This document shows, piece by piece, positions 24,422-62,599 of a stretch of DNA of 64,000 nt (the first letter of the stretch is position 1; each line of letters starts with the position of its first letter). The position numbers and the translations under genes are program-made. The notes under the pieces were generated by a model, which searched no databases, was not told where the DNA came from, and saw only the letters and a program-made list of their open reading frames with translations. This DNA is from Amnibacterium kyonggiense (GTDB lineage Bacteria; Actinomycetota; Actinomycetes; Actinomycetales; Microbacteriaceae): contig NZ_SOAM01000001.1 in the NCBI RefSeq assembly GCF_004364555.1, forward strand, positions 558,001-622,000, read 5' to 3'.

Positions 24422-24435
24422 CCCCTGGACGGGGG
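24422..24435. promoter_or_regulatory. CCCC-N6-GGGG motif upstream of the orphan 24591 gene
   Basis: CCCCTGGACGGGGG fits the palindromic pattern found at the flagellar and pilus promoters in this window. A TAGCGT -10 candidate lies at 24460-24465, the same hexamer as at the sigma-factor gene. A regulatory role is inferred from the recurrence. Confidence 0.45.
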
Positions 24436-24590
24436 ATGGAGGGGGAGCCCCGGTTTCCGTAGCGTTGGAGGACGCCGGTCACCCAGCCGGCTACCGCGCA
24501 CCCTCGCGGTTCTGCCCCCTCTGCACCTGGACCCACGGTGACGACTCCTTCCCCCCTTCACGCGCGCCTGCTCGCGCTCGGAGCACGCTG

Positions 24591-24998
24591 ATGCTCCGCC
24601 CGTACCGCCTCGAGCGCGAGCTCGACCGCGCCGTCTCGCAGTGGCTCGACTGGCTGCCCCGCTGGGACCCGGCGACCGCTCGCCGGCGCCTCTCGCCCTG
24701 CGTGACCTGCCCCGGCTGGGCCGTCGAGCTCGGCTTCGACGAGGTGCCGCACGGCGCCCTCCACGCGCTCACGACGTCGCTCGACGCCGTCGTGACCGAG
24801 CACGTGCGCCGGTCCGTGTCGCTGCAGCCGTTCCTCAGCGACGAGGCCATCGACGGCCTCCGCGACCAGCTGCGCCGGGAGGCGACCGCCTGGGTCGCTC
24901 GGCAGCACGCGCAGATCTCCCGCGCGCTCGACGCGTTCGTCGAGCCGAAGGTGCAGCACATGGCGGCGCTCCTGCTCGCCGACCTCGGCGGCGTCTAG
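24591..24998 (+). CDS. Hypothetical protein, 135 aa, CxxC motif
   Basis: I do not recognise this family. The protein is mostly helical, with a CVTC motif (Cys37, Cys40) that could bind metal or form a disulfide, and long amphipathic helices in the second half. There is no signal peptide or membrane segment. ATG 24591 has GGAG seven nucleotides upstream. The promoter region carries a C4N6G4 motif and a TAGCGT -10, like the flagellar sigma gene. It is convergent with fliW at the left border of the flagellar locus. A role connected with motility is a guess from promoter and position only. Confidence 0.7.
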   Translation: MLRPYRLERELDRAVSQWLDWLPRWDPATARRRLSPCVTCPGWAVELGFDEVPHGALHALTTSLDAVVTEHVRRSVSLQPFLSDEAIDGLRDQLRREATAWVARQHAQISRALDAFVEPKVQHMAALLLADLGGV

Positions 24999-25066
24999 CC
25001 CCATCGACCCGCGGGTCGGGCCAGGGAGGAGTGGCCCGTCGACGTCCGACCCGCGTTCCTCAGGAA

Positions 25067-25107
25067 CGCAGAAGGCCCGATCCCTGGAACGGATCGGGCC
25101 TTCTGCG
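25067..25107. terminator. Bidirectional terminator between the orphan gene and fliW
   Basis: A perfect 17-bp stem, CGCAGAAGGCCCGATCC (25067-25083) with 25091-25107, has a 7-nt loop. It lies in the 116-bp gap between convergent genes and would end both the 24591 transcript and the leftward flgNKL-fliW operon. Confidence 0.8.
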
Positions 25108-25114
25108 GTTCCGG

Positions 25115-25519
25115 TCAGGCCGCGGCGGTGACGAGCTCGGCCTGCAGCGGCCAGTCGTCCTCGAGGATCAGCTGCGTCGCGGTGCGCGCGACCGGGTTGA
25201 CGACGATCGGCGCGAGCAGGTTCACGACGGGCGCCCCGTCGACGATGTTCGCGACCACGTAGACGTCGGCCTCGGCCGGCGTCGACAGCTGCAGTGCCGC
25301 CAGGTCCGCATCGTCGATGGACGGCAGGTACTCCGGCACGTAGAACGTCGGGTCGATGAGGAACAGCCGCAGGCCGGCGCCCGCGGTGTCGCGGAGCGTG
25401 TAGAGCCCGGGCGCGCCTTCGACAGCGGCGAGGTCGAAGTCGGTCAGCGGCGCGAAGCCGGGAGGCGGCGCCGTGAAGCTGAGGCGTCCGTCGCGAGCAG
25501 TGGGCAGTGCAGAGATCAT
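25115..25519 (-). CDS. fliW: Flagellar assembly factor FliW
   Basis: The 134-residue FliW protein. In Bacillus subtilis FliW binds flagellin in the cytoplasm and, when free, binds CsrA and relieves CsrA repression of flagellin translation. The family signature is clear: GFAPLTDFDL, then RLFLIDPTFYVPEY and the C-terminal LLAPIVVNPVARTATQLIL. It is the last gene of the leftward flgN-flgK-flgL-fliW operon; its ATG overlaps the flgL stop. A csrA gene is present at 57873, so the full FliW-CsrA pair is encoded in the locus. Confidence 0.93.
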   Translation of the reverse strand: MISALPTARDGRLSFTAPPPGFAPLTDFDLAAVEGAPGLYTLRDTAGAGLRLFLIDPTFYVPEYLPSIDDADLAALQLSTPAEADVYVVANIVDGAPVVNLLAPIVVNPVARTATQLILEDDWPLQAELVTAAA

Positions 25520-27937: not shown

Positions 27938-28432
27938 TCAGCCCTGCCGGTCGAACAGTCGCGCGCCGGTCGCGGCGGGCACGCGCTGACCCCCGCGGGC
28001 GCCGTAGGCGAAGGGGTCGTCCTGCTGGGTACCGACGGTCGCGAGCGTCTCCTGCGTCGCGCGGGTCGCGGCGCGGAGATAGGTGAGGTTGGTGTCGCGC
28101 AGGTCCGCGATCTGGGAGGTGAGCGCGGTCAGCGCGGTGAGGTGGGAGAGCAGCACGTCGCGCCACGCCTCGTCCGCGCCCTCGGCGAGCTGGCGGAGCG
28201 TCGCGTCCTCCGGCAGGCCCCAGGAGACGGCGACCGACGACGCCTCGACCGTGCGCTCGATCCCGGCGGTGCGGAGGTGGCCGAGCACCTGCTCGACCTC
28301 GCGCGTCGCGTGGTGCAGCCACTTCGAGCGGCCGGCGGTGAGGAGCAGCTGCTCCTCCTCGAGCTTGAAGACGAGCATCTCGAGCAGCTCGCGCTCGCGC
28401 CACAGGAGGGACGAGAGGTCGTTCACGCTCAT
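27938..28432 (-). CDS. flgN: FlgN-family flagellar export chaperone
   Basis: A 164-residue helical protein at the head of the leftward operon, immediately before flgK. The LWRERELLEMLVFKLEEEQLLLTAG segment matches the FlgN coiled-coil start. FlgN binds FlgK and FlgL and delivers them to the export gate. ATG 28432 has an AGGAA ribosome binding site; an upstream ATG (28471) has none. The operon promoter is probably at 28528-28533, divergent from the sigma gene and next to a C4N6G4 motif. Confidence 0.85.
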   Translation of the reverse strand: MSVNDLSSLLWRERELLEMLVFKLEEEQLLLTAGRSKWLHHATREVEQVLGHLRTAGIERTVEASSVAVSWGLPEDATLRQLAEGADEAWRDVLLSHLTALTALTSQIADLRDTNLTYLRAATRATQETLATVGTQQDDPFAYGARGGQRVPAATGARLFDRQG

Positions 28433-28569: not shown

Positions 28570-28583
28570 CCCCCGAACGGGGG
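28570..28583. promoter_or_regulatory. CCCC-N6-GGGG motif, flgN-proximal copy
   Basis: CCCCCGAACGGGGG is an inverted repeat with five-base arms. It is the nearer of two such sites to the flgN operon in the divergent region between flgN and the sigma gene. Centre-to-centre distance to the second copy is 38 bp. Confidence 0.5.
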
Positions 28584-28607: not shown

Positions 28608-28621
28608 CCCCCTACTGGGGG
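28608..28621. promoter_or_regulatory. CCCC-N6-GGGG motif, sigma-proximal copy
   Basis: CCCCCTACTGGGGG has five-base arms. Its centre is about 42 bp upstream of the TAGCGT -10 candidate (28656-28661) of the sigma gene. That position would suit an activator binding upstream of RNA polymerase. Confidence 0.5.
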
Positions 28622-28711: not shown

Positions 28712-29536
28712 ATGGGTACACGAACCGAGCGCGACGCGCTGGTCCGCGACAACCTCGCGATCGTCGGCTACCTCGTGAACGAGGTGGCGCGGAAGGCGAC
28801 GCACGTGTCGCGCGACGAGCTCGCGTCCGCCGGCGCGCTGGGCCTCGTGCTCGCCGCCGAGAGCTTCGACCCGGCGCAGGGCGTGCCGTTCGGTGCGTTC
28901 GCCCGGCGCCGGATCCTCGGCGCGATCGCGGACGAGATGCGCTCGGCCGACTGGGCCTCGCGCACGGCGCGCCGCCGCATCCGCGAGTCGCTGACCGTGC
29001 AGGAGTCGCTGACGAACGCGCTCGGGCGCGCGCCGAGCGTCGACGAGGTCGCCGAGTCCCTCGGCGTCGACAGGAAGACGGCGATGACGGCGCTGTCCGG
29101 CGCGAACCACGCGGTGCAGTCGCTCGACCAGATGGACTCCGTCGCGGACACCCTCGCCGCCGAGGCCGCGAGCCCGGAGGACGTCGTGCTCGAGACGGAG
29201 CGCACGCGCTACGTGAAGGCGGCGGTGACGAGCCTGCCGGAGAAGATGCGGTACATCGTCGAGCAGATCTACTTCCACGACCGGTCGGTCGGCGACCTGG
29301 CGGCGGAGCTCGGTCTCACGCACTCCGCGGTGTCGCAGCAGCGCTCGGAGGGCATCCGGCTCATGCGGCACGGGCTGGAGACGCAGTACTCGACCGGGCC
29401 GGTCCCGCGCATCGAGGACCAGCAGCGTCTCGCCCCGGCGCGCCGCGCGGCCTATCTCGCACGGCTCGCTGAGACTTCCACCGCGCGGATGGCCCAGCCG
29501 GCCGCGCCCGCTTTCTTCACCGAACGAACCGCATAA
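28712..29536 (+). CDS. fliA: FliA/WhiG-type sigma-28 factor
   Basis: A 274-residue sigma factor of the flagellar FliA group. Region 2 reads DELASAGALGLVLAAESFDP, then FGAFARRRILGAIADEMRSADWASR, the typical promoter-melting segment. Region 3 contains RRRIRESLTVQESLTNALGR. Region 4 HTH is SVGDLAAELGLTHSAVSQQRSEGI. A 35-residue C-terminal extension follows. The ATG at 28712 has AAGGA upstream. It is divergent from flgN and immediately upstream of fliC, which has a sigma-28 promoter. No anti-sigma FlgM is visible in the window. Confidence 0.93.
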   Translation: MGTRTERDALVRDNLAIVGYLVNEVARKATHVSRDELASAGALGLVLAAESFDPAQGVPFGAFARRRILGAIADEMRSADWASRTARRRIRESLTVQESLTNALGRAPSVDEVAESLGVDRKTAMTALSGANHAVQSLDQMDSVADTLAAEAASPEDVVLETERTRYVKAAVTSLPEKMRYIVEQIYFHDRSVGDLAAELGLTHSAVSQQRSEGIRLMRHGLETQYSTGPVPRIEDQQRLAPARRAAYLARLAETSTARMAQPAAPAFFTERTA

Positions 29537-29557: not shown

Positions 29558-29571
29558 CCCCTACTTCGGGG
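29558..29571. promoter_or_regulatory. CCCC-N6-GGGG motif upstream of fliC
   Basis: CCCCTACTTCGGGG, with four-base arms, lies 9 bp upstream of the fliC sigma-28 -35 element. Its inner bases (TACT) resemble those of the 28608 copy. Here it is nearer to the promoter than at the other genes. Confidence 0.45.
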
Positions 29572-29579: not shown

Positions 29580-29606
29580 TAACGGCCTCGCAATTCCGGC
29601 CGATAG
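29580..29606 (+). promoter_or_regulatory. Sigma-28 promoter of fliC
   Basis: TAAC (29580-29583), a 15-bp spacer and GCCGATAG (29599-29606) match the FliA consensus TAAA-N15-GCCGATAA with one mismatch in each element. Transcription should start near 29612, giving a leader of about 55 nt. Confidence 0.75.
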
Positions 29607-29621
29607 CCATTCGCGTCGGAC

Positions 29622-29661
29622 CACGGATGGACCGCAGATCAGATCCCGACTCACGGAGGAA
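29622..29661 (+). promoter_or_regulatory. Candidate CsrA-binding sites in the fliC leader
   Basis: Two ACGGA motifs lie 30 nt apart: CCACGGATGG (29621-29630), where GGA can sit in a small CCA/TGG hairpin loop, and ACGGAGGA (29653-29660), which is the fliC ribosome binding site itself. This two-site layout resembles the hag leader of Bacillus subtilis bound by a CsrA dimer. Both csrA and fliW are in this locus. Binding is inferred from sequence. Confidence 0.5.
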
Positions 29662-29666
29662 CTCGA

Positions 29667-30869
29667 ATGGGATTCGCAATCAACACCAACAACGATGCGC
29701 TCAACACGTATCGGAACCTGACCAGCGTGCAGAACTCCTTGAGCAAGTCGCTCGAGAAGCTCTCGAGCGGTCTGCGGATCAACCAGGCGGGTGACGACGC
29801 GGCCGGCCTGACGATCTCGACGCAGCTCGCGTCGCAGGTCTCCGGTCTGCAGCAGGCCTCCCGCAACGCCCAGGACGGCACCTCGCTCGTCCAGACGGCG
29901 GACGGCGCGCTCACGCAGGCGCAGTCGATCCTCGGCCGGCTCCGCGACCTCGCGGTGCAGGCGGGCAACGACTCGAACAGCACGGCCGCCCGCACGGCGA
30001 TCCAGTCCGAGGCCACGAGCCTCACGGCGGAGCTCTCCCGCATCGGCAGCTCGGTGAACTTCAACGGTCAGAACCTGCTCGACGGCAGCACGCCGACGTT
30101 CAAGTTCCAGGTCGGTGCGGACGGGAACTCGCAAAGCCAGATCTCGGTCGACCTGAGCAAGGCGAACCTCGTGTCCGTCGCCGCCGGCCTCAACGCGGGC
30201 AACGCGAACGCGAAGGTGTACGACATCGCGACGCTGGGTGCGGCGACCTCGGCGCTGCAGTTCACGGGCTCCGGCACGGGCTACAGCGACAAGGCGACGG
30301 TCGACCTGACCGGCACGAACGTCAAGGGCACCGGTGCCGGCGGCGCGAAGACCGCGCAGGACTACGTGACGACGCTGAATGCGGACGCGGACTTCGCGGC
30401 CAACTTCACCGCGTCGACGTACGTCGACGGGACCGGCGGGCAGCACGTCGCGGTCGCGGCGAAGAACGCCGCGTCGACCCTGGCAGTCACCGACTCGGCG
30501 ACGACGCCTGCCACCATCACGGCGAGCACCACGGTGCCCGGCAGCGGTGGCAACCCCGGCATCGGTCAGCTGAGCTTCGCCACGGCTGACGCGGCGCAGG
30601 CGTCCATCCAGGCGCTCGACGTGCAGATCGCCGCTGTGTCCAAGGCTCGTGCCGACATCGGCGCCATCGAGAACCGGTTCAACAACGTCGTCTCGACGAT
30701 CTCCACGTCGGTCACCAACCTGACCGCCGCGAAGAGCCGCATCACCGACGTCGACATGGCGCAGGAGATGGTGAACTACACCCGCGCGAACGTGCTGTCG
30801 CAGGCCGGTACCGCGATGCTCGCCCAGGCGAACTCGCTGCCGCAGCTGGCGCTGAAGCTGCTGGGCTGA
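29667..30869 (+). CDS. fliC: Flagellin
   Basis: A 400-residue flagellin. The conserved D0/D1 N-terminus (FAINTNNDALNTYRNL, then SSGLRINQAGDDAAGLTIS) and C-terminus (IGAIENRFNNVVSTI, ending LPQLALKLLG) are complete. A variable central domain (about residues 175-295) is Thr/Ala-rich and rich in beta structure. The ATG at 29667 follows GGAGG. It is transcribed alone between a sigma-28 promoter and a strong hairpin. Translation is probably controlled by CsrA. Assembly depends on FliW, FliS and FliD encoded nearby. Confidence 0.97.
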   Translation: MGFAINTNNDALNTYRNLTSVQNSLSKSLEKLSSGLRINQAGDDAAGLTISTQLASQVSGLQQASRNAQDGTSLVQTADGALTQAQSILGRLRDLAVQAGNDSNSTAARTAIQSEATSLTAELSRIGSSVNFNGQNLLDGSTPTFKFQVGADGNSQSQISVDLSKANLVSVAAGLNAGNANAKVYDIATLGAATSALQFTGSGTGYSDKATVDLTGTNVKGTGAGGAKTAQDYVTTLNADADFAANFTASTYVDGTGGQHVAVAAKNAASTLAVTDSATTPATITASTTVPGSGGNPGIGQLSFATADAAQASIQALDVQIAAVSKARADIGAIENRFNNVVSTISTSVTNLTAAKSRITDVDMAQEMVNYTRANVLSQAGTAMLAQANSLPQLALKLLG

Positions 30870-33286: not shown

Positions 33287-33300
33287 CCCCCCAACGGGGG
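33287..33300. promoter_or_regulatory. CCCC-N6-GGGG motif upstream of flgB
   Basis: The site is part of a longer palindrome CCCCCCAACGGGGGG (33287-33301) with six-base arms. A CATGAT -10 candidate lies about 42 bp downstream at 33336-33341. This would be the control point of the long flgB to flhB series of genes. Confidence 0.5.
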
Positions 33301-33419
33301 GTATGGCGCTTCCACCTCTGGTCGAAGGTTCGGCCCATGATCGACCCATCGAGCACGGATCGCTCGGTGGACCAGGCCACGGATCGGCCGCCCCTCCTTG
33401 ACGAAGGACGGACTTCTCC

Positions 33420-33764
33420 GTGTTCGATTCGGTCACCATCAACGCGCTCACGAGCGCGATGGACGGCCTCGCGCTGCGGCAGCGGACGATCGCCCAGAAC
33501 ATCGCGAACGTCAACACGCCGAACTACCACGCGAAGATCGTGTCGTTCGAGAACGCGCTCGCGCAGTCCGTCGCAGGCGGCGGCGACGGCACGGCCTCCG
33601 CCACGACGACGACGTCCGAGGCGCCCACCCAGCAGAACGGCAACAACGTCAGCCTCGACTCCGAGACGCTGAACAACATCGAGACGGTGCTGCGGTACCA
33701 GTTCGCCACCCGCGCGGTGAACATGGACTTCTCCGCCACCCAGGCCGCGATGAAGACCAGCTGA
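33420..33764 (+). CDS. flgB: Flagellar basal-body rod protein FlgB
   Basis: A 114-residue proximal rod protein. The rod signature LRQRTIAQNIANVNTPNYHAK (about residues 19-39) is intact. The C-terminal ETVLRYQFATRAVNMDFSAT helix is typical. A central Thr/Gly-rich linker is short. The GTG at 33420 gives MFDSVTINAL. First gene of the rod/MS-ring operon; its stop overlaps the flgC ATG. Confidence 0.93.
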   Translation: MFDSVTINALTSAMDGLALRQRTIAQNIANVNTPNYHAKIVSFENALAQSVAGGGDGTASATTTTSEAPTQQNGNNVSLDSETLNNIETVLRYQFATRAVNMDFSATQAAMKTS

Positions 33765-34150
33765 TGGACGCGATCAACATCGCCGCCACGGCGCTCAACA
33801 CCCACCAGGCGTGGCTCAACGCGATCTCGAACAACATCGCGAACGTCAACACCGCGAAGTCGGCCTCCGGCAACGCCTTCCAGGCCGAGTACCTCGAGGT
33901 GCAGGAGCAGGCCGGCAACAACGGCGTCGCCGTCGAGAAGGTCGTCCACGGGGACCCGAAGGGCCGGCTCGTCTACGACCCCACGAACGCGGTCGCCGAC
34001 AAGGACGGCTACGTCCGCATGCCGGACATCGACCTCGGTGAGCAGATGTCGAGCCTGATCATGGCGCAGCGCGGCTACCAGGCGAACGCCGCGGTCGTCG
34101 ACCGGGCGAAGACCACCTACGAGGCGGCTCTGCAGATCGGCAGGAGCTGA
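33764..34150 (+). CDS. flgC: Flagellar basal-body rod protein FlgC
   Basis: A 128-residue rod protein. It begins with the INIAATALNTHQAWLNAISN helix and the NNIANVNTAKS motif. It ends with YVRMPDIDLGEQMSSLIMAQRGYQANAAVVDRAK, close to the classic FlgC C-terminus. The start overlaps the flgB stop (TGATG), and the stop shares one base with the fliE start. Confidence 0.94.
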   Translation: MDAINIAATALNTHQAWLNAISNNIANVNTAKSASGNAFQAEYLEVQEQAGNNGVAVEKVVHGDPKGRLVYDPTNAVADKDGYVRMPDIDLGEQMSSLIMAQRGYQANAAVVDRAKTTYEAALQIGRS

Positions 34151-34464
34151 TGACCTCCATCTCCCCGCTGTCCGGGATCGACAGCCTCACCGGGCTCGGC
34201 GGCGCGGCCGCCCCCGGCGTCGCGACCACCGCCCCCACCTCCGGCCCGAGCTTCAGCTCGGTGCTCGGCGGTGCCGTCGACAACCTCTCCGGCCTGCAGA
34301 ACACCGCCGACGCGCTCGCTGTGAAGGCCGTCACGGGCGACCTCACCGACATCCACCAGGCGACCCTCGCTGCGACCCGGGCGCAGGTCACGATGGAGCT
34401 CGTCTCCGCGGTGCGCAACAAGGGCGTCGAGGCGTTCAACTCGATCATGAACATGCAGGCCTGA
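34150..34464 (+). CDS. fliE: Flagellar hook-basal body complex protein FliE
   Basis: A 104-residue FliE, which links the MS-ring to the rod. The C-terminal half (SGLQNTADALAVKAVTGDLT, then ATRAQVTMELVSAVRNKGVEAFNSIMNMQ) is the conserved helical region. The N-terminal half is a flexible Gly/Ala-rich stretch. It is tightly packed between flgC and fliF. Confidence 0.93.
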   Translation: MTSISPLSGIDSLTGLGGAAAPGVATTAPTSGPSFSSVLGGAVDNLSGLQNTADALAVKAVTGDLTDIHQATLAATRAQVTMELVSAVRNKGVEAFNSIMNMQA

Positions 34465-34465
34465 G

Positions 34466-36121
34466 ATGAAGCGGCTGAACGGCGCGGGCACCCGCGCGCT
34501 CGAGACGATCAAGCAGTTCACGGTCGCGCAGCGCACCATCGCGATCATCGGCGTCGCCGTGCTCGTGCTCGGGGGCGTCGCGCTCGTGAACTACCTCGGG
34601 CAGCCCTCGTACCAGGTCCTGTACTCGAACATCTCCGCGTCGGAGGCGTCCGCCGTCACCGCCCAGCTCGACAAGGACAAGGTCCAGTACCAGCTGCAGG
34701 ACGGCGGCCAGACGATCCTGGTGCCGAACGCCGCGGTGAACGCCGAGCGCCTCGCGACCGCGACGCTGCTCTCCTCCGGCGCCGGCGGCTACTCGCTGCT
34801 CGACAACATGGGCGTGACCGCGAGCGAGTTCCAGCAGAACGTCACCTACAAGCGCGCGATCGAGGGCGAGCTCGCCAACACGATCGAGGCCATCAACGGC
34901 GTCTCCTCCGCCTCCGTGCAGCTCGCGATCCCGCAGCAGTCCGTCTTCACGGACCAGAAGGAGGACCCCACCGCCTCCGTCTTCGTGAACGTCTCCTCCC
35001 CGCTGACCACCGACCAGGTGAACGCGATCGTGCACCTCGTCGCCGCGGCCTACCCCGGGCTCACCACCGACAACGTGTCGGTCGTCGACCAGCGGGGCGA
35101 CACGCTCTCCTCGGTCGGCAGCGGCACGGCCGGCAGCGGCTCGGACGCCGCGGCCGACTACGAGCAGGCGACGAAGAACGCCGTGCAGGCGATGCTCGAC
35201 AAGGTGCTCGGCCCGGGCAACGCGGTCGTCACCGTCGCCGCGGACGTCTCCTCCTCCTCCGGCCGGAAGACGAGCGAGACCTACTCCGGGGCGAACGGGC
35301 CCGCGTTCTCCGAGTCGTCGAGCAAGACCACGGGCGGCGCCGGCTCCGGCACGGCGGGCTCCGGGAACGGCGTGAGCGGCGTGCTCGGCACCGACACGAC
35401 CGACACCTCGACCGGCGGCAACAGCGCGACGGCCGGCGGCTCGGGCTCGGGCTCGGGCGGCGCCTCCTCCACGTCCGTGGTGAAGAACAACGCGGTGAAC
35501 AAGACGACGACCGACGAGACGATCGTGCCCGGGACGCTGAACCGGCAGACGATCGCCGTCGCGCTGAACGCCAGCACGGTGACCGGGGTGTCGACCGGGT
35601 CGATCACGCAGATGGTCACGAACGCGGCCGGCGTGAACCTGTCCCGCGGCGACACCGTCTCCGTCACCAGCGTCCCGTTCTCCACCGCCGCGGCGAAGAC
35701 GGCCGCGTCGGCGCTCGCCCAGTCGCAGAAGGCCGCCGGCGCGAACCAGATGACCGACATCATCACGACGGCGATCAAGGTCGTCGGCGGCCTCGTGCTC
35801 TTCATCCTCGTGACCGGCCTGCTCCGCAAGCTCTTCCGCAAGCCCGAGCCGACCACCGCGGACGCCGGCGTCCTGAACATCGTGCCCGGCGGCGACCCGG
35901 CGCTCGGCGGGTACGCCCCGACCCAGCAGCTCGGCGGCTTCGCGGCCCCGGGCCAGCTGCAGACCGGCGGCCCGGGCACCGCCCCGACCGTCGCCCTGAA
36001 CGCGCCGGCCGACGGCGCGTTCGCCCAGCTGCAGGCCGACGTCGACGCCCTCGCGGGATCCGACCCGAATCAGACCGCCGAGTACCTCCGCGCGCTGATG
36101 GGTGATCGGGCCGGCGTATGA
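34466..36121 (+). CDS. fliF: Flagellar MS-ring protein FliF
   Basis: A 551-residue FliF. Two membrane helices flank a large extracellular domain: TIAIIGVAVLVLGGVALVNYL (about residues 28-48) and ITTAIKVVGGLVLFILVTGLL (about 432-452). YKRAIEGELANTIEAINGVSSASVQLAIP is the conserved ring-building motif. A Gly/Ser-rich linker (about residues 290-335) lies in the beta-collar region. The C-terminal tail ends in NQTAEYLRALMGDRAGV and should bind FliG. The gene overlaps fliG by 4 bp. Confidence 0.95.
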   Translation: MKRLNGAGTRALETIKQFTVAQRTIAIIGVAVLVLGGVALVNYLGQPSYQVLYSNISASEASAVTAQLDKDKVQYQLQDGGQTILVPNAAVNAERLATATLLSSGAGGYSLLDNMGVTASEFQQNVTYKRAIEGELANTIEAINGVSSASVQLAIPQQSVFTDQKEDPTASVFVNVSSPLTTDQVNAIVHLVAAAYPGLTTDNVSVVDQRGDTLSSVGSGTAGSGSDAAADYEQATKNAVQAMLDKVLGPGNAVVTVAADVSSSSGRKTSETYSGANGPAFSESSSKTTGGAGSGTAGSGNGVSGVLGTDTTDTSTGGNSATAGGSGSGSGGASSTSVVKNNAVNKTTTDETIVPGTLNRQTIAVALNASTVTGVSTGSITQMVTNAAGVNLSRGDTVSVTSVPFSTAAAKTAASALAQSQKAAGANQMTDIITTAIKVVGGLVLFILVTGLLRKLFRKPEPTTADAGVLNIVPGGDPALGGYAPTQQLGGFAAPGQLQTGGPGTAPTVALNAPADGAFAQLQADVDALAGSDPNQTAEYLRALMGDRAGV

Positions 36122-47779: not shown

Positions 47780-47785
47780 GGGCCG

Positions 47786-49323: not shown

Positions 49324-49335
49324 GGGCTCTCGCAC

Positions 49336-50485: not shown

Positions 50486-50504
50486 CCGAGGACGGGGGTG
50501 ACCC

Positions 50505-51584
50505 GTGCCTGACCAGCCGTCCGGGGAACGCACCGAGAAGGCCACGCCGAAGCGCCTCGAGGAGGCGCGGCGCGAAGGCCGCATCCAGCGCTCCCGCGAC
50601 ATGCCGAGCTGGCTGTCCATGGGCGCGGCGGCGCTGACGCTGCCGCTCGTCATCGGCAACGGCGCCGCCGCCTCCCGCGACCTCGTGCTCGGGGTGAAGG
50701 AGATCATCGCCGACCCCACGGCGTCCCGCGCCCAGTCGACGTTCCTCGGGGCGTTCGGGGTGCTGCCGGGCGTCCTCGCGCCGGTGATGGCCGCGGCCGT
50801 CGTCGGCGCGATCGCCGGCTCGCTCGCCTCCGGCGGGTTCTCGATGAAGCGGTTCAAGCCCCATTTCGACCAGTTCGACGTCGTGAAGGGTGCCGGCCGC
50901 CTCGTCGGCAAGCAGGCGCTGTGGGAGGGAGCGAAGGCGCTCCTCAAGACCGGCGTCGTCGGCGTCGCCGTCTGGACCGCGATCCAGGGCGCGATCCCCC
51001 TGCTGTCCGCGTCCGGCGCGATGCCGGTGTCCGCGGTCGTGTCCACGGCGTCCGGCATCGCCGTCGCGATCCTCCAGGCCGCGATCGTGGCGGGCGTCGT
51101 GCTCGGCGCGATCGACGTGCTCGTCGTCAGCCGGCGGAACCGGCAGCACACGATGATGACGAAGCAGGAGATCAAGGACGAGTCGAAGTCCACCGAGGGC
51201 GACCCGCACATCCGGCAGCAGCGGCGCAGCCGGGCAATCCAGATCTCCCGCAACCGCATGATGGCCGCGATCGCCGGCGCGGACGTCGTGATGCTGAACC
51301 CGACGCACGTCGCCGTGGCACTGAAGTACGAGCCGGGGAAGTCGGCGCCGCGGGTCGTCGCGAAGGGCGCGGGGGAGGTCGCGGCCCGGATCCGCGAGCG
51401 CGCCGCCGAGCACCGCGTGCCGATGGTGCAGGACATCCCGCTCGCCCGCGCGCTCTACGCCGCGTGCCAGGTCGACCAGGAGATCCCGGAGGAGCTCTAC
51501 GGCGCCGTCGCCCGCGTGCTCGCGTTCGTCATGTCGCTGAAGCGCCGCGGCGCCGCGCTCGGCGTCCACCGCCTCGCCTCCTGA
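50505..51584 (+). CDS. flhB: Flagellar export switch protein FlhB
   Basis: A 359-residue FlhB. The N-terminus GERTEKATPKRLEEARREGR is standard. Four membrane helices follow. The autocleavage site NPTH is at residues 265-268 (DVVMLNPTHVAVALKYEPGK). The C-terminal cytoplasmic domain with the IPLARALYAACQVDQEIPEEL segment is complete. It switches export from hook to filament substrates together with FliK. A GTG start is used. flhA, normally next, is displaced by 3 kb. Confidence 0.95.
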   Translation: MPDQPSGERTEKATPKRLEEARREGRIQRSRDMPSWLSMGAAALTLPLVIGNGAAASRDLVLGVKEIIADPTASRAQSTFLGAFGVLPGVLAPVMAAAVVGAIAGSLASGGFSMKRFKPHFDQFDVVKGAGRLVGKQALWEGAKALLKTGVVGVAVWTAIQGAIPLLSASGAMPVSAVVSTASGIAVAILQAAIVAGVVLGAIDVLVVSRRNRQHTMMTKQEIKDESKSTEGDPHIRQQRRSRAIQISRNRMMAAIAGADVVMLNPTHVAVALKYEPGKSAPRVVAKGAGEVAARIRERAAEHRVPMVQDIPLARALYAACQVDQEIPEELYGAVARVLAFVMSLKRRGAALGVHRLAS

Positions 51585-54407: not shown

Positions 54408-54613
54408 TCCGACCGCGCCACCCCCGCCCAGGTGCCCCCCTTCCGGGGGGAGCGGGCGTGGCGCGCCGGGGCGGCGAGGCGCCGCGCCCGCATGATGGCC
54501 CTCACACGGGCGTCGCGCAGGACGCGCTCCCCGTGCACGCCCGGCGGAGCCGGGGTCACCGACGGTCGCGGCGGAGCCGCAGCAGATCGCGCCACCGAAG
54601 TGGACGGAGTCCC
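54408..54613 (+). promoter_or_regulatory. flhA upstream region
   Basis: This 206-bp gap holds the C4N6G4 palindrome at 54436, a CATGAT -10 candidate at 54491-54496 and a GGAG ribosome binding site close to the GTG at 54614. It indicates that flhA has its own promoter in the same regulon as the other flagellar genes. Confidence 0.45.
54436..54449. promoter_or_regulatory. CCCC-N6-GGGG motif upstream of flhA
   Basis: It is the core of CCCCCCTTCCGGGGGG (54435-54450), six-base arms around four bases. Its centre is about 48 bp upstream of the CATGAT -10 candidate. As a stable GC hairpin it could also end the metallopeptidase transcript. Confidence 0.5.
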
Positions 54614-56683
54614 GTGCGACGACTCGCGCTCGGCCGGACCGCGTCCGCCATCGCCGTGCCGCTCGGCCTGGTGGCGATCATCATGCTGCTCGTCGTGCCG
54701 ATCCCGGCATGGCTGCTCGACCTGCTGATCACCGTGAACATCCTGTTCGCGCTCGTGATCCTGCTGACGACGATGTTCGCGAAGAAGCCCCTCGACTTCT
54801 CCGTCTTCCCGTCGCTGCTGCTCATCGCGACGCTCTTCCGCCTCGGGCTCAACGTCGCCTCCACCCGCCTCGTGCTCGGCCAGGGCTACGCGGGGGAGGT
54901 CATCCACGCGTTCGGCTCGGTCGCGGTCGGCGGCTCCATGGTCATCGGCGCGGTCGTCTTCGTGATCCTCGTCGTCATCCAGTTCGTCGTCGTCACGAAG
55001 GGCGCGGAGCGCGTCGCCGAGGTCGGCGCGCGCTTCACCCTCGACGCGATGCCCGGCAAGCAGATGGCGATCGACGCCGACCTGAACTCCGGCCTCATCA
55101 CCGAGGACGAGGCGCGCCGCCGCCGCAAGGAGGTCAGCGCGGAGGCCGACTTCTACGGCGCGATGGACGGTGCGTCGAAGTTCGTCAAGGGCGACGCGAT
55201 CGCCGGCATCGTCATCGTCCTGGTGAACGTGCTCGGCGGCATCATCATGGGCGTCCTGATCCACGGCCAGCAGATCCTGGACGCGGTCAACACCTACACG
55301 CTGCTCACGATCGGCGACGGCCTCACCGCGCAGATCCCGGCCCTGCTCATGGCCGTCTCCACGGGCATGATCGTGACGCGGTCGAACTCGGAGAGCGAAC
55401 TCGGCCAGGACGCGGGCAAGCAGCTCACGCAGTCGCGGCTCGCGCTGATGATCGCGGGCGTCGCCGCCTGCCTCATGGCGCTCATCCCGGGCATGCCGAT
55501 GATCCCGTTCATCCTCGTCGGCGGCACCCTGATCTTCGTCTCCACCCGACTCCGCCGCGCCGAGCAGAACAAGGAGAAGGAGGCGGCGCTCGCCGAGGTC
55601 GCCGCGAAGCAGCAGGCGCCCGCCTCCGACACCCCGGAGGAGCTCATGGAGCAGATGCGCGTGCACGCGCTCGAGGTGCAGCTCTCCCCGGACCTCGTCG
55701 ACCTCGTCTCCGGCGTCAGCGACGACCTGCTCGCACGGGTCAAGGCGCTGCGCCGCCGCATCGCGATGGAGTACGGCGTCGTCGTGCCGCCGGTGCGGAC
55801 GCGCGACAGCGTCGACCTGCCGCCGTCGACCTATGTCATCCGCGTCGCCGGCGTCGAGATGGGCCGGGGCCTCGCTCCGGTCGGCAAGGTGCTCGCGCTC
55901 GGCGACCACCTCGACGCGCTGCCCGGCACGCCGACGGTCGAGCCGGTCTTCCAGCTGGCGGGCAAGTGGATCCCGGCGGAGCTGCGGCACGCCGCGGAGA
56001 CCACGGGCGCGACGGTGATCGACCGCGGCTCCGTGCTCGTCACCCACCTCTCGAGCGTCATCACCGACAACGCGGGCCGCCTCCTGTCCCGGGAGGACGT
56101 CCGCGTCCTCACCGAGGGCGTCAAGCGCTTCAGCCCCGCGCTCGTCGAGGAGCTCGTGCCCGGCCTGCTCACGCTCGCCGAGATCCACCGCGTCCTGCAG
56201 GGCCTGCTCGCGGAGAAGGTGCCGATCAACGACCTCGCCCGCATCTACGAGGCGCTCTCCCTGCGGGCGAAGGTGTCGACCGACCCCGAGGGGCTCATCG
56301 AGGCCGCCCGCGGCGCGCTCGGGCCGGTGCTCGTGTCGCCGCACCTCGACGAGCGCACCCTGCGCGTCGTGATGATCGACCCGCAGCTCGAGCAGGGGAT
56401 GCTCGAGAACCTCCGGCCCTCCGAGCTCGGGACCCAGATCCTCATCTCGCCGGACATGATCACGCGCATCGTGGAGTCGCTGCGCACCGCCGTGCAAGCC
56501 GCGGAGATGCGCGGCTGGTCGCCCGTGCTCGTGTGCGCGCCCGCCCTGCGCCCGGCGATACGCCGTCTCGTCGCACCGCAGACGAACGGCCTGCCCGTGC
56601 TGTCGTACCAGGAGGTGACGTCGGCCGACGTCACCATCGAGACCGTTGGAGTGGTTCGTGCCCTCGATTCGATTCCGGCTTGA
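54614..56683 (+). CDS. flhA: Flagellar export gate protein FlhA
   Basis: A 689-residue FlhA. Eight N-terminal membrane helices include the conserved DFSVFPSLLLIATLFRLGLN and the FHIPEP-type segments VTKGAERVAEVGARFTLDAM PGKQMAID and ADLNSGLITEDEARRRR. The C-terminal cytoplasmic domain holds the chaperone-docking region. GTG 54614 has GGAG upstream. The 3' end overlaps the FlhF-like gene by 26 bp. Confidence 0.96.
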   Translation: MRRLALGRTASAIAVPLGLVAIIMLLVVPIPAWLLDLLITVNILFALVILLTTMFAKKPLDFSVFPSLLLIATLFRLGLNVASTRLVLGQGYAGEVIHAFGSVAVGGSMVIGAVVFVILVVIQFVVVTKGAERVAEVGARFTLDAMPGKQMAIDADLNSGLITEDEARRRRKEVSAEADFYGAMDGASKFVKGDAIAGIVIVLVNVLGGIIMGVLIHGQQILDAVNTYTLLTIGDGLTAQIPALLMAVSTGMIVTRSNSESELGQDAGKQLTQSRLALMIAGVAACLMALIPGMPMIPFILVGGTLIFVSTRLRRAEQNKEKEAALAEVAAKQQAPASDTPEELMEQMRVHALEVQLSPDLVDLVSGVSDDLLARVKALRRRIAMEYGVVVPPVRTRDSVDLPPSTYVIRVAGVEMGRGLAPVGKVLALGDHLDALPGTPTVEPVFQLAGKWIPAELRHAAETTGATVIDRGSVLVTHLSSVITDNAGRLLSREDVRVLTEGVKRFSPALVEELVPGLLTLAEIHRVLQGLLAEKVPINDLARIYEALSLRAKVSTDPEGLIEAARGALGPVLVSPHLDERTLRVVMIDPQLEQGMLENLRPSELGTQILISPDMITRIVESLRTAVQAAEMRGWSPVLVCAPALRPAIRRLVAPQTNGLPVLSYQEVTSADVTIETVGVVRALDSIPA

Positions 56684-57803
56684 GAAGCCGACCCTGACTG
56701 GTCTCGCCGCCCGCGTCGCGGCGGAGTTCGGTCCGGAGGCGCGGATCCTCGACACCGAGGAGTCCATCGTCGGCGGCATCGCCGGCCTCTTCGGCAAGCG
56801 GGTGATCGACGTGACGGTCGAGCTGCCCGACCGGGCCGCCCCGGAGGGCGCGCACGAGTTCTCCATGCGGTCCCGCGTCGGGCTCGCCGCGCTGCTCGAC
56901 GACGCCGACGCCGCGGACCTCGGGCCGGCGTCCGCCTACGGCGACGACCCGTGGATGGTGCCCGCGCCCCCGGCGCAGGTCTCGACGCAGGGCGGCGACT
57001 TCGCCTCGGTGCTCGATGCGCTGCGCATCGACGTCGAGCCGGGCGAGACCGGGGGAGGCACACCCGCGCGTCCCCTCCGCCGCACGACGGCCGCCGCGCA
57101 GCCCCAGCACTTCACGCAGCTGCGGCCGCAGCGCCCTGCCGCCCCGCCCGCCCCGATGCGCGCGGTCACCGCCTCCGTGCCGGTCCGGGCGCTCGAGGCG
57201 CCGTCCGCCCGGCACGTCCCGGTCGCCCCCGCGGCTCCGGCCGAGCCGACGCCCGCGGAGGTCGCCGCCGTGCAGCAGTACGTGTGGGCGACGAGCACCC
57301 CGCGGTCGCGCATGGGCCGCACGACCCCGGGGGCGCCGCCGCCGCAGCGCACCCGCGCCGGCGACCTCCTGCTGCTCGTCGGCATCGGCGACGACGCGAT
57401 GCACGTCGCGAAGTCGCTGCGCGACCGCATGCAGCGGGGCTACGTCTGCGACGGCGGGACGCTCGAGGGCAACACCCGGCGTCGGGTCGACGACCGCCGC
57501 GGCGCCGTCGCCGCTCGCGCGTACGGGGTGCGGAGCGACCAGCCGGTGATCGTCGCCTACGGCGTCGGCCGCGGCCCGATGGCCGAGGAGGAGCTCGAGC
57601 AGCTGCTCTCCATCGACAGCGACCAGTCCTGGCTCGTCGTCGACGCCGCGAAGGACGCGGAGGAGACGCTCGAGTGGACCGGGCGCCTGCGGGGCCGGCT
57701 CCAGGTCGACGCGGTCGCGAGCCTCCGCGCGCAGCGGGGCGTGCAGCACGAGGCGCTCGCCGCCATCGGCCTCCCCGAGGCCTACCGCGAGCTCGCCGGC
57801 TGA
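56658..57803 (+). CDS. FlhF-like protein lacking the GTPase P-loop
   Basis: A 381-residue protein in the flhF position after flhA. The N-terminus (PSIRFRLEKPTLTGLAARVA, FGPEARILDTEESI, GLFGKRVIDVTVELPD) matches the FlhF B domain. A long Ala/Pro-rich linker follows (about residues 125-215). The C-terminal region has LLLLVGIGDDAMHVAKSLRD where FlhF has a GxxGxGKT P-loop: the lysine and threonine are missing, so GTP binding in the SRP manner is unlikely. The GTG at 56658 has GGAG six bases upstream; ATG 56646 is an alternative. It may keep a polar-placement or scaffold role. Confidence 0.72.
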   Translation: MPSIRFRLEKPTLTGLAARVAAEFGPEARILDTEESIVGGIAGLFGKRVIDVTVELPDRAAPEGAHEFSMRSRVGLAALLDDADAADLGPASAYGDDPWMVPAPPAQVSTQGGDFASVLDALRIDVEPGETGGGTPARPLRRTTAAAQPQHFTQLRPQRPAAPPAPMRAVTASVPVRALEAPSARHVPVAPAAPAEPTPAEVAAVQQYVWATSTPRSRMGRTTPGAPPPQRTRAGDLLLLVGIGDDAMHVAKSLRDRMQRGYVCDGGTLEGNTRRRVDDRRGAVAARAYGVRSDQPVIVAYGVGRGPMAEEELEQLLSIDSDQSWLVVDAAKDAEETLEWTGRLRGRLQVDAVASLRAQRGVQHEALAAIGLPEAYRELAG

Positions 57804-57811
57804 TCCCGATC

Positions 57812-57848
57812 CTTTGTTTCGGAGGACGCCGCGTCCTACGAAACGAAG
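57812..57848 (+). terminator. Terminator after the FlhF-like gene
   Basis: An 18-bp stem (57812-57829 with 57831-57848) with one G-U pair and one mismatch, starting 9 bp after the stop. It is AT-richer at its base than the surroundings. It separates csrA from the flhA transcript. Confidence 0.65.
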
Positions 57849-57860
57849 AATGCTGCGGAC

Positions 57861-57866
57861 TAGGCT
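57861..57866 (+). promoter_or_regulatory. -10 box of a probably leaderless csrA transcript
   Basis: TAGGCT ends 6 bp before the csrA GTG at 57873, so transcription would start at the codon itself. No Shine-Dalgarno sequence is visible. There is no convincing -35. Confidence 0.5.
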
Positions 57867-57872
57867 CGCGGC

Positions 57873-58223
57873 GTGCTGGTGCTCACGCGGAAGAAGGGTG
57901 AGCGCGTGATGATCGGCGACGACATCGTCGTCACCGTCATCGACGTCCGGGGCGACGGCGTCCGCATCGGGTTCGACGCCCCGCGCGGCGTCAGCATCCA
58001 GCGCGCGGAGGTCGTCTCCGCGGTGCAGGAGGCGAACACCGGCGCTGCGGCCTCCGCCGCGCAGTCCGCCGACCTGCTCGTCGGCCTGCTCAACCGGGCG
58101 CGCAAGGCCGAGGCGGAGCGGTCCGAGCCCGCGGCCGAGGCCCCCGCGCCGCCGACGCCGCCCGCCCCGCGCACGCCTCCTGGGCCCGCACCGAAGCCGA
58201 CCCCGCCCAAGCCCCGCGGCTGA
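57873..58223 (+). CDS. csrA: Carbon storage regulator CsrA with an extended C-terminus
   Basis: A 116-residue CsrA. The first 55 residues (MLVLTRKKGERVMIGDDIVV, then GVRIGFDAPRGVSIQRAEV) are standard, with the RNA-binding Leu4, Arg6 and the late VSIQRAEV strand. CsrA is usually 60-75 residues; here about 50 more follow, ending in a proline-rich tail (APPTPPAPRTPPGPAPKPTP). It represses translation by covering GGA-containing ribosome binding sites. Flagellin is the likely target, with FliW as antagonist (25115-25519). Confidence 0.94.
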   Translation: MLVLTRKKGERVMIGDDIVVTVIDVRGDGVRIGFDAPRGVSIQRAEVVSAVQEANTGAAASAAQSADLLVGLLNRARKAEAERSEPAAEAPAPPTPPAPRTPPGPAPKPTPPKPRG

Positions 58224-59664: not shown

Positions 59665-59696
59665 CGCACGGTGGTTGAGCCGGGCGCCCGGCGCCC

Positions 59697-61214
59697 GTGC
59701 CGGAACCACGCCCCGTGCACCCCTCGCACGACCGGGACCCCGCCCGCCAGGATGTGCTGGTGAGCGGAGTCGGCGGCGTCGGGGCCCGCGGCGCGCTCGG
59801 CGGCGTCGGGGCCCGCGGCGCGCTCGGCGTCGTCGGCGTGCTGGTGGTCGTCGAGTTCGCCTCCGGCGTCCTTCAGGGCTACTACGTCCCGCAGCTCACG
59901 GACATCGCCCGAGCGCTGGACATCGCGGACGCGGACGTCAACTGGCTCGAGGGCGGGCAGCTCGCGCTCTCCGTCGTCGCCCTGCCGATCCTCGCGAAGC
60001 TCGGCGACCTCGTCGGCCATCGCCGGATGCTGCTCGTCGCGCTCGCGGTCACCGCCGTCGCGAGCCTCGGCCTCGCCTTCGCGACGACCTTCCCGGTCTT
60101 CCTGACGCTGTGGGCGGTCCAGGGCGTCTACGGCGCGTGGCTGCCGCTCGAGATCGCGCTGATCGCCCACCGGGCGAGGACGAGGGAGGACCCGCAGGCG
60201 ACGACGCGCGCCGGAGCGGGGGTCGTCGTCGCGGCGCTCGAGGCGGGCGCCATCGCCGGTGCGCTGGCCGGCGGCTCCGCGCAGGCGCTGCTCGGCTCGC
60301 TCCGCGCGGCCCTGCTCGTCCCGGGCGTGCTCGTCGTCGTCGCGTTACTCGCGGTGCTGATCGGCGTCCGCAGCACGGGGGAGCGGGCGCCCGGGCGGCT
60401 CGACGGGCGCGGCGCCGTGCTGCTCGGTTCGGCGCTGGCGGTGCTGACCGGGGCGCTCAGCCTCCTCCGGCTCCAGCCGGGGTCCGGGCTCGGCTGGGGC
60501 GTCCTCCTCCTCGGGCTGGTGCTCCTCGCGGTGTTCGTGCTCGTCGAGCGGCGCGTCGACGACCCGCTCATCGACATGCGGGTGCTCGCCCGGCCCGCGG
60601 TGTGGCCGATCCAGCTCGCGGCCCTGCTCTTCGGCGTGAGCGTGCTCGGCGCGCAGGGGCCGCTGTCGACGTTCGTCCGCACCGATCCGGCCGCCGTCGG
60701 CTACGGGCTCGGCCTGAGCTCCGGGATGCTGTCGGTCGTCATCGGCGCCTACGTGCTCGCACTCCTGGTCGGTGCCCTCCTCCTCGGTCCCGTCTCGCGC
60801 CTCGCGGGCACGCTCCCGACGCTCATCGCGGGCTCCACGATCGTCGCGGTCGGCTACCTCGCGCTCGTGCCGTTCCACGCCTCGCTCGCGGAGGTGCTCG
60901 TCGCGATGGTGATCGCGGGCCTCGGCTCCGGGACGCTCGTCGCCGCGCTGCCCGCGGCGGCCGCCGCCGTCGCGCCGGCGGGCCGCACGGCGGTCGCCAC
61001 CGGGCTCACGAACACCGGCAAATCGCTGGGCGGCGCGTTCGCCTCGTGCGGCTTCGCGATCGCCCTCGCGACCGGCGCACCCGCCGGCGGCACCGCGGGC
61101 AGCTACGCCGGCTACCTCACCGTCTGGGCCGTGTGCGGCGGCACGGCGCTCGTCGGCGCGGTCGCGCTCCTCGTCGTCCCGGCCGCGGCCTTCCCGAAGC
61201 GGGCGGCCGCATGA
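59697..61214 (+). CDS. MFS transporter
   Basis: A protein of up to 505 residues with about 14 helices, of the EmrB/QacA drug-exporter kind. ILAKLGDLVGHRRMLLVALA is the motif-A loop between helices 2 and 3. The GTG at 59697 is the most upstream start; a GTG at 59760 is more likely because the earlier 21 residues are polar and AGG lies just upstream of it. The N-terminus contains a perfect 27-bp in-frame tandem duplication (59772-59825, peptide GGVGARGAL twice). It overlaps the M20 peptidase gene by 4 bp. The substrate is unknown. Confidence 0.85.
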   Translation: MPEPRPVHPSHDRDPARQDVLVSGVGGVGARGALGGVGARGALGVVGVLVVVEFASGVLQGYYVPQLTDIARALDIADADVNWLEGGQLALSVVALPILAKLGDLVGHRRMLLVALAVTAVASLGLAFATTFPVFLTLWAVQGVYGAWLPLEIALIAHRARTREDPQATTRAGAGVVVAALEAGAIAGALAGGSAQALLGSLRAALLVPGVLVVVALLAVLIGVRSTGERAPGRLDGRGAVLLGSALAVLTGALSLLRLQPGSGLGWGVLLLGLVLLAVFVLVERRVDDPLIDMRVLARPAVWPIQLAALLFGVSVLGAQGPLSTFVRTDPAAVGYGLGLSSGMLSVVIGAYVLALLVGALLLGPVSRLAGTLPTLIAGSTIVAVGYLALVPFHASLAEVLVAMVIAGLGSGTLVAALPAAAAAVAPAGRTAVATGLTNTGKSLGGAFASCGFAIALATGAPAGGTAGSYAGYLTVWAVCGGTALVGAVALLVVPAAAFPKRAAA

Positions 61215-62509
61215 CCCCAGCCGACCGCCTCGCCGCCCTCATCCGCATCCCGACCGTCTCGGACGCCGCGACCCGGGACGAGGCCGCATTCGTCGCCTTC
61301 CGCGCGACGCTCGCCGAGCTCTACCCGCTCCTCCACGAGCGCCTGGAGCGCGCGGAGGTCGCAGGCGGCGCGCTCCACCTCGTCTGGCGGGGCGGGACCG
61401 CCGCGCCGGTCGTGCTCATGGCGCACCACGACGTCGTCCCCGTCGCGGACCAGCCCTGGCACCGCGACCCGTTCGGCGGCGAGGTCGTCGACGGCGTCCT
61501 CCACGGCCGGGGAGCGCTCGACGACAAGGGACCGCTCGTCGCGGTGCTGGAGGCGGTCGAGGGCCTCCTCGCCGAGGGGTTCGTCCCCGCGGGCGACGTC
61601 CACGTCGTGTCCGGGCACGACGAGGAGGTCCGCGGCTCTGGTGCGCAGGCGATCGCGCAGACGCTGCGGGCGCAGGGGGTGCGGCCGGCGCTCGTCCTGG
61701 ACGAGGGCGGCGCGGTCGTCGAGGGCATCGTCCCCGGCGTCGCGGGCCGCCTCGCGATGATCGGGCTCACCGAGCGCGGCACCGCGGAGGTGCGGCTCAC
61801 CGTGCGGTCGTCGGGCGGCCACGCCGCGGTCCCGCCGCGCCGGCAGGCCGCCGTGCGACTCGCGACGGCGCTGACGCGGATCGAGCGGCACCCCTTCCCC
61901 GCCCGCAGCAACGCCGCGATCGTCGCGATGGCCGCTGCGCTCGCGCCCCGGCTGCCGGCGCCCGTCGGTGCGGTCCTCCGCTCGCGCACGTCCGCGCCGC
62001 TCGTCGCCCGGCTGCTCGGCGCCCTCGGCGGCGTCACCGGCGCACTCGTGCGCACCACGGTCGCCGTCACCCGCATCCGCGCGGGGGAGGCCGCGAACGT
62101 CCTGGCCGCGGAGGGCACCGCCGAGCTGAACGTCCGCATCGCGCCCGGCGACGACGTGCAGGGCGTGCTCGCCCGGCTGCGGCGCATCGTGCGCGACCCG
62201 GCCGTCGAGGTCGAGCTGATCGCCGGCGACGAGCCCGCGCCGCTGTCGCGCGCGCACGGGCCGGCGTGGGACCGCGTCGCCGCCGCGGTCGCTGCGGCCT
62301 ACCCGGACGCCCTCCCGGTGCCGTACGTCATGGTGCAGGCGAGCGACGCCCGCCACTTCTCGGGACTGGGCGCGGACGTCTACCGCTTCATGCCGTTCGC
62401 GATCACCGCGGAGGAGCTCGCGGCCATCCACGGCGCCGACGAGCGGGTCTCCGTGGCGGCGCTGGACGCGGCGATCGCCTTCCACCGCGCCCTCCTCACC
62501 GCCGGCTGA
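61211..62509 (+). CDS. M20-family metallopeptidase
   Basis: A 432-residue zinc peptidase. VLMAHHDVVPVADQPWHRDP holds the first zinc ligand and catalytic Asp, GRGALDDKGPLVAVLEAVE the bridging Asp, and SGHDEEVRGSGA the catalytic Glu pair. A dimerisation domain is inserted (about residues 195-310). It is longer than ArgE/DapE and closer to carboxypeptidase PM20D1-like proteins. The substrate is unknown. The ATG overlaps the MFS stop, suggesting joint uptake or export and hydrolysis of a peptide or N-acyl amino acid. Confidence 0.9.
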   Translation: MTPADRLAALIRIPTVSDAATRDEAAFVAFRATLAELYPLLHERLERAEVAGGALHLVWRGGTAAPVVLMAHHDVVPVADQPWHRDPFGGEVVDGVLHGRGALDDKGPLVAVLEAVEGLLAEGFVPAGDVHVVSGHDEEVRGSGAQAIAQTLRAQGVRPALVLDEGGAVVEGIVPGVAGRLAMIGLTERGTAEVRLTVRSSGGHAAVPPRRQAAVRLATALTRIERHPFPARSNAAIVAMAAALAPRLPAPVGAVLRSRTSAPLVARLLGALGGVTGALVRTTVAVTRIRAGEAANVLAAEGTAELNVRIAPGDDVQGVLARLRRIVRDPAVEVELIAGDEPAPLSRAHGPAWDRVAAAVAAAYPDALPVPYVMVQASDARHFSGLGADVYRFMPFAITAEELAAIHGADERVSVAALDAAIAFHRALLTAG

Positions 62510-62585
62510 CGGCCCCTTCGCCCGGCCACCGAATCGGACCCGCCGATCCCGAATCGGCTGCGCGAGGGCATGGCCCGACACCTGC

Positions 62586-62599
62586 CCCCTGCACTGGGG
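62586..62599. promoter_or_regulatory. CCCC-N6-GGGG motif upstream of pilB
   Basis: CCCCTGCACTGGGG follows the same pattern as at the flagellar promoters. A TAGCCT -10 candidate lies about 48 bp downstream at 62640-62645. It links the pilus operon to the motility genes if the motif is real. Confidence 0.45.

Follow-up and report, generated by a model that had tools for sequence, protein, structure and literature searches.

What acts at the short GC palindrome CCCC-N6-GGGG (C4N6G4) that recurs before flagellar and pilus genes in Amnibacterium kyonggiense? The window analysed here, a 64-kb stretch of contig NZ_SOAM01000001.1, comes from the 3.71-Mb genome of this soil actinobacterium of the Microbacteriaceae and holds seven such sites, which a sequence-only reading had taken for operators of an undescribed master regulator of flagella and type IV pili. 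Our analysis supports one part of that proposal and not the other: conservation, spacing and poor -35 boxes favour an operator, whereas the restriction to flagella and pili does not stand. As far as sequence comparison can tell, C4N6G4 is probably the operator of one regulator, presumably an activator, governing a motility and surface regulon that extends throughout the Microbacteriaceae. The sites and their promoter elements (palindromes carry no strand), followed by the target genes, are:

24422..24435, no strand, putative operator upstream of orf24591, CCCCTGGACGGGGG; -10 look-alike TAGCGT at 24460
28570..28583, no strand, putative operator in the divergent flgN-fliA gap, flgN side, CCCCCGAACGGGGG; -10 look-alike TACGCT at 28533, minus strand
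28608..28621, no strand, putative operator on the fliA side, CCCCCTACTGGGGG; TAGCGT at 28656, 34 bp downstream
29558..29571, no strand, site adjoining the fliC sigma-28 promoter, CCCCTACTTCGGGG
29580..29605, plus strand, sigma-28 type promoter of fliC, TAAC-N15-GCCGATA
33287..33301, no strand, putative operator upstream of flgB, CCCCCCAACGGGGGG; CATGAT at 33336
54435..54450, no strand, putative operator upstream of flhA, CCCCCCTTCCGGGGGG; CATGAT at 54491
62586..62599, no strand, putative operator upstream of pilB, CCCCTGCACTGGGG; TAGCCT at 62640
24591..24998, plus strand, orf24591, 135 aa, in no Pfam or NCBIfam family
27938..28432, minus strand, flgN (Pfam), heading the run flgN-flgK-flgL-fliW
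28712..29536, plus strand, fliA (sigma-28), with sigma-70 regions 2, 3 and 4; named FliA from its cluster position
29667..30869, plus strand, fliC (flagellin; Pfam)
33420..33764, plus strand, flgB, heading a long flagellar run; named by eye from sequence and gene order
54614..56683, plus strand, flhA (Pfam FHIPEP)
62706..63998, plus strand, pilB (type IV pilus ATPase; Pfam T2SSE and MshEN), truncated by the window end

The seven sites lie where the sequence-only reading had placed them, and the window contains no others. All are intergenic, and their centres lie 97-172 bp ahead of the start codons of the genes listed, inside the limit of about 220 bp that it had given. Its estimate of about 18 chance sites per 64 kb was too high: dinucleotide shuffles yield a mean of 2.78 (sd 1.82, largest 9), compared with 10 overlapping matches in the window, and for the longer C5N4G5 form there are 5 matches vs 0.32 in shuffles. 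Considering genes that have 80 bp or more of gap upstream, a site is present at 7 of the 14 motility genes and at none of the 16 others (Fisher P = 0.0017), the motility class being our own assignment and including orf24591; with orf24591 moved to the non-motility class, the counts become 6/13 and 1/17 (P = 0.015). The names flgE, fliM and flhB, like much of 33420-51584, were assigned by eye. Genome-wide counts of both forms, which had been proposed as a check, give 116 matches for C4N6G4 vs 85 for the reversed pattern and 18 vs 3 for C5N4G5. Besides C4N6G4 we distinguish a refined form CCCCNGNANNGGGG and a longer form C5-N4/5-G5, often CCCCCGNAC(T/G)GGGG. Out of the 116 overlapping matches we examined 79 sites, picked for A or T at the centre plus a few others; 66 are intergenic and 13 intragenic by our own gene calls, made with a script based on GC content by codon position.

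The promoters share a recognizable anatomy. From the site centre to the -10 look-alike we measured 31.5 (orf24591), 43.5 (flgN), 41.5 (fliA), 42 (flgB), 48.5 (flhA) and 47.5 bp (pilB), in agreement with the spacings originally claimed. The -35 boxes are poor, the best correctly spaced candidate matching TTGACA in at most three of six bases, and at fliC a sigma-28 promoter follows directly after the site instead of the usual -10 look-alike. Such a layout suggests activator-dependent promoters with the site near -43, -53 or -60. A regulator dimer bound about 31, 42 or 48 bp (centre) upstream of the -10 could recruit RNA polymerase to these promoters, which have no good -35. From the shared divergent control region the regulator would switch on fliA and the flgN run, and from their own operators flgB, flhA, pilB and orf24591; at fliC the operator would sit just upstream of the sigma-28 promoter, and the sigma-28 genes would be reached via fliA.

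The arrangement at fliC raises the question whether the palindrome is simply part of the promoter of sigma-28 or of another sigma factor, with no separate operator. In the fliC promoter of this genome and the flgB promoters of several genera it stands just upstream of TAAC...CCGATA, but six of the seven window sites have no sigma-28 box, the distance to the -10 takes several values, and 31 of 38 fliC leaders have no site even when a spacer of 5 or 6 is allowed; we regard this explanation as highly improbable. A search for the sigma-28 element TAAN-N-CCGATA found its sole window match at fliC, that is, at one of the seven sites.

We give equally little credence to the idea that each site serves the upstream gene as a transcription terminator or RNA hairpin. 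Palindromes with C4 or C5 arms are able to fold, the site at fliC begins 22 bp past where fliA ends and that at flhA 28 bp past a peptidase gene, and longer stems occur at a few genomic sites (4/59 with at least 3 extra pairs; L128). The arms of the window sites, however, extend by only 0-1 pairs, the sites at 28570 and 28608 lie between divergent genes, and there is a preferred spacing to the -10. Furthermore, 53 of the 59 other intergenic sites examined in this genome lie no more than 350 bp upstream of a start, and 3 are found between convergent genes. Scored on arm length and position, the element did not qualify as a long-stem intrinsic terminator. Rfam models at gathering scores matched nothing in the window and only a tRNA in each of the stretches L003, L007 and L056.

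Within the genus, five other Amnibacterium-like contigs contain 12 distinct C4N6G4 sites, every one of which precedes orf24591, flgN-fliA, fliC or flgB. The orf24591 site is kept in three of the five (L003, L001, L007; absent from L002 and L004), and the three share the 24-bp spacing of the window site, counted by eye. Four of the five have a site in the flgN-fliA gap, L001 being without an exact one. On the flgN side, the site of A. setariae (L003), whose FliA is 89% identical to the one studied here, is identical, and L002, L004 and L007 carry CCCCGAACTGGGGG; on the fliA side, A. setariae is identical in sequence and spacing, and a second site near fliA also occurs in L002 and is absent from L001, L004 and L007. 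The fliC site is kept in 4/5 other Amnibacterium loci with a spacer of 5 or 6, and the flgB site is exact in one of three and has one mismatch in the other two.

Comparison with A. setariae, covering those fetched regions that carry the refined pattern, and with genome G016, covering part of its own, found sites before the orthologues of orf24591, flgN-fliA, fliC, flgB (G016), flhA and pilB, and, by our own count, also at 13 more loci, where the distance differs in a few cases. The flhA site is identical in A. setariae (L110). At pilB, A. setariae has CCCCTGGTCTGGGG in the same position, and here as at several other promoters the spacer has changed while both arms are kept, as predicted by selection for a palindromic operator. 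No C4N6G4 site was found in the flagellar loci of Actinotalea (L006), Arthrobacter (L008) or a Glaciihabitans metagenome-assembled genome (L005), the last itself a member of the Microbacteriaceae.

Of 299 Microbacteriaceae genomes, 90 yielded a FliA match, and we compared 40 FliA loci, five of them from Amnibacterium; among the 35 outside the genus, 31 were usable for the flgN-fliA gap, 30 for flgB and 33 for fliC. The flgN-fliA gap carries the site in 17/31 outside loci, representing 11 of 20 genera, vs 1/31 for the reversed control, and mononucleotide shuffles of the gap gave a mean of 1.08 (largest 3 in 200 runs). The flgB gene is conserved across the compared flagellar loci, inside Amnibacterium and outside, and its promoter has a site in 9/30 outside loci (6/19 genera; reversed control 1). 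The remainder of the outside loci, 490 kb, contains 11 sites vs 10 reversed ones. At fliC, the exact site occurs in 1/33 outside loci, and the reversed control with a spacer of 5 or 6 in 0/38. In the flgN-fliA gap, 9 of 22 -10 look-alikes lie 34-36 bp from the site, which is the commonest spacing, and the window fliA promoter has 34 bp; promoters other than fliA show other spacings. Conservation in relatives, a check suggested by the sequence-only reading, thus came out in favour of an operator at flgN-fliA in the other genera and at pilB in A. setariae: the site is kept at orthologous promoters amid divergent bases, and at fliA one spacing to the -10 is preferred. Outside Amnibacterium, sites also stand before fliM in g40 (L178) and before proteins with a type IV pilin N-methylation motif in g40 and g9 (L176, L183). 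The operator reading is therefore well supported by these comparisons; protein binding, a single binder and activation are inferred.

The refined pattern CCCCNGNANNGGGG reaches well beyond motility loci. It exceeds the reversed control in Amnibacterium, including genome G159, which has no FliA match (32 vs 8), and is two-fold enriched over the 299 Microbacteriaceae (3738 vs 1856), with no enrichment in 139 genomes of other families in the order (2163 vs 2387). In 117 FliA-negative genomes the counts are 1768 vs 862. Genes downstream of sites in this genome include those for an Ig-domain protein (L018), a glycosyltransferase (L061) and an exopolysaccharide sugar transferase (L058). Large family-2 glycosyltransferases are preceded by sites in two other genera (L165, with NCBIfam matches below cut-off, and L179), and the gene downstream of the L174 site matches Pfam SpoIIE. 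The data thus do not support a regulator that serves flagella and type IV pili alone, since relatives without flagella are also enriched in the refined site, which stands before many other genes as well. Sites before exopolysaccharide, surface-protein and other genes instead indicate a regulon of motility and cell surface, not of flagella alone. One site with an altered spacer, present in this genome (G000) and in A. setariae, lies just upstream of a gene for a 66-aa excisionase-family helix-turn-helix protein with a weak BldC match (L062 3783-3983), possibly a second regulator gene under the operator.

Several observations weigh against a single motility and surface operator. Seven of the 14 long-gap motility genes in the window have no site (fliD, fliK, flgE, the gene at 44050, fliM, flhB and csrA), and the exact site is missing from 14/31 outside flgN-fliA gaps and 21/30 outside flgB promoters. 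The fliC site is restricted to Amnibacterium and g68 (3/3 in g68, 0/30 in other loci, with a spacer of 5 or 6). The spacing peak at fliA is weakened because five of the nine look-alikes come from one genus (g5), the others coming one each from g71, g54, g35 and A. setariae. Among 20 stretches from four other genera (four genomes, out of eight with listed sites), a clear motility, pilus or polysaccharide target was seen at five promoters, and most of the remaining stretches have no obvious connection with motility. Sites also precede genes read from Pfam as ProRS, FtsK, GlmS, DivIVA and ParA, so some genomic sites may be something else, and the existence of three spacing classes and of two register forms might point to several binders.

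These points bear on a further explanation, in which similar GC palindromes serve at least two regulators, the motility sites being those of one and the genome-wide excess belonging partly to others or to other DNA functions. The differing spacers (CGNACT, TACTTC, CTACTG), the differing -10 spacings (11, 24, 34 and 40, by eye) and the housekeeping targets would all fit, whereas similar CGNAC or TGNAC spacer forms appear at fliA, pilin, polysaccharide and regulator genes alike. We consider such sharing unlikely, though distinctly less so than the terminator or sigma-factor explanations.

The single-operator reading can be set beside known systems. To our knowledge, Actinoplanes is the only actinobacterium in which flagellar regulation is understood in some depth, and TcrA of Actinoplanes missouriensis controls, among others, flagellar genes. 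The TcrA report describes a response regulator acting in sporangium formation, dormancy and dehiscence, with a box consisting of a 21-bp direct repeat, nnGCA(A/C)CCG-n4-GCA(A/C)CCGn (PMC12691653). As portrayed there, the TcrA regulon resembles the one proposed here in that an actinobacterial regulator with global reach activates promoters from a position ahead of the start point, but the TcrA box is a direct repeat and the present site a GC palindrome. No TcrA box with fewer than two mismatches occurs in the window, six occur with two (shuffles 7.5), and none overlaps the sites. In the parts available of a survey of actinobacterial flagella, known regulators are named only as search queries and unknown regulatory genes are set aside (PMC10746217). 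Our literature search, mostly outside subscription journals, returned no paper on the motif, nor on such a regulator in Microbacteriaceae, Leifsonia or actinomycetes, in keeping with the original description of the regulator as undescribed.

Other regulators offer partial parallels. FlhDC, FleQ, SwrA and VisNR are activators upstream of early flagellar genes or fliA; they are other proteins with other sites, and the site here also stands before pilus and polysaccharide genes. Operators of the copper-responsive CsoR type, expected beside copper genes and with TA flanks, have C-tract and G-tract arms resembling CCCC...GGGG, but the window genes adjoining the sites are not copper genes. Operators of the NarL/FixJ family (NarL, DevR, VraR) are, like the present site, short inverted repeats upstream of promoters. 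Their consensus sequences as we know them, inverted TACYYMT heptamers for NarL and GGGAC arms for DevR, differ from it, and we know of no site of C4N6G4 form in this family.

Within the single-operator reading, and as a refinement of it rather than its opposite, a tentative candidate for the binder is a NarL/LuxR-type response regulator encoded at C4:231672-232358, which would act with neighbouring kinases, recognise the putative target form CCCCCGTACTGGGGG and be autoregulated in Amnibacterium; we rate this identification as rather unlikely, if a little less so than shared palindromes. The protein has REC and GerE domains, a HATPase or kinase-like neighbour gene, and DevR and NarL as its nearest solved relatives. 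A site lies 106 bp upstream of the gene in this genome, and CCCCCGTACTGGGG lies 91 bp upstream in A. setariae, but 0/20 other genera have an exact site within about 330 bp upstream. Copies at E 1e-70 or better are present in 86/90 FliA-positive genomes, although also in 117/209 FliA-negative ones, and copies at E 1e-25 or better in 229/299 Microbacteriaceae. The 139 genomes of other families contain none at or below 1e-70; beyond the Microbacteriaceae the strongest match is 1.8e-43 (149 genomes of the order searched).

Site enrichment also follows similarity to the candidate, with values of 3.87, 2.37, 1.90, 1.59, 1.67 and 0.98 by similarity bin and 1.15 for genomes with no match, although the bin from E 1e-25 to 1e-39 (2.04, 8 genomes) breaks the trend. 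With one genome per genus, sites and controls number 866/401 in 54 genera with the candidate vs 159/126 in 24 without it (P = 2e-5), where "without" means no match or a match weaker than 1e-40, six intermediate genera and g85 being left out; for genera with a control count of at least 6 (34 and 10), P = 0.0017. Where the candidate is present, enrichment does not differ between genera with and without flagella (27 vs 27 genera, P = 0.29). On the other side, the candidate is distributed along the lines of the family tree and of genome size, which confounds the association; the starting point for the pattern was also close to Amnibacterium, and other regulators may fit equally. In the window itself, the only regulators among 30 Pfam-scanned proteins are FliA, CsrA and two AraC-type genes at the far left (2898-4798), and none was seen by eye among the genes of 33420-51584. 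The candidate has a second copy at 234720, 99% identical (L039 3209-6952), each copy with two neighbouring kinase-like genes; A. setariae and G159 also have two copies.

More speculatively still, the NarL-type two-component system may be a master switch between swimming, pilus movement and life on surfaces under a polysaccharide coat, kept where flagella were lost. One GC palindrome would then activate fliA, early flagellar, type IV pilus and surface-polysaccharide genes. Whichever protein binds it, the family-wide site provides a handle in the form of a 15-bp bait for fetching the regulator from cultured Microbacteriaceae, and that regulator would reveal the joint switching of flagella, pili and surface sugars.

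Some further features accompany the target genes. The orf24591 gene is present in all six sampled FliA-positive Amnibacterium (g1) genomes and unmatched in the FliA-negative G159. Across many other genera, open frames of at least 213 codons match about 70 residues at its N-terminus. Upstream of its operator lie a 20-nt terminator-like repeat (24311-24354) and, between this and the operator, an adjoining 31-nt inverted repeat with 94% identity and a 3-nt loop (24354-24418). After the orf24591 -10 comes CGGTCACCCAGCCGG (24476-24490), whose core CACCCAGCCGG is common to the Amnibacterium-like contigs L001, L003 and L004, and the leader of a 55-aa open reading frame on contig C3 (L056 3920-3960), where an operator is found at similar spacing, contains two copies of CGGTCACCCAGCCG. 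The two leaders possibly share an RNA or translational element; Rfam has no match for it. The 1.2-kb flhA-csrA gap (56684-57872) contains three scanned plus-strand open frames without a Pfam match. Finally, 21 of 38 scanned fliC leaders (L064-L103) contain a hairpin with a 5-8 bp stem and GGA in the loop, about 40-50 bp before the start, for example GCCCACGGATGGGC; the stem bases vary, and the hairpin matches what is expected of a CsrA site. In the Amnibacterium fliC leaders (window 29600-29667) the stem has only 3-4 bp, and fliW (25115-25519) and csrA (57873-58223) both lie within the window.

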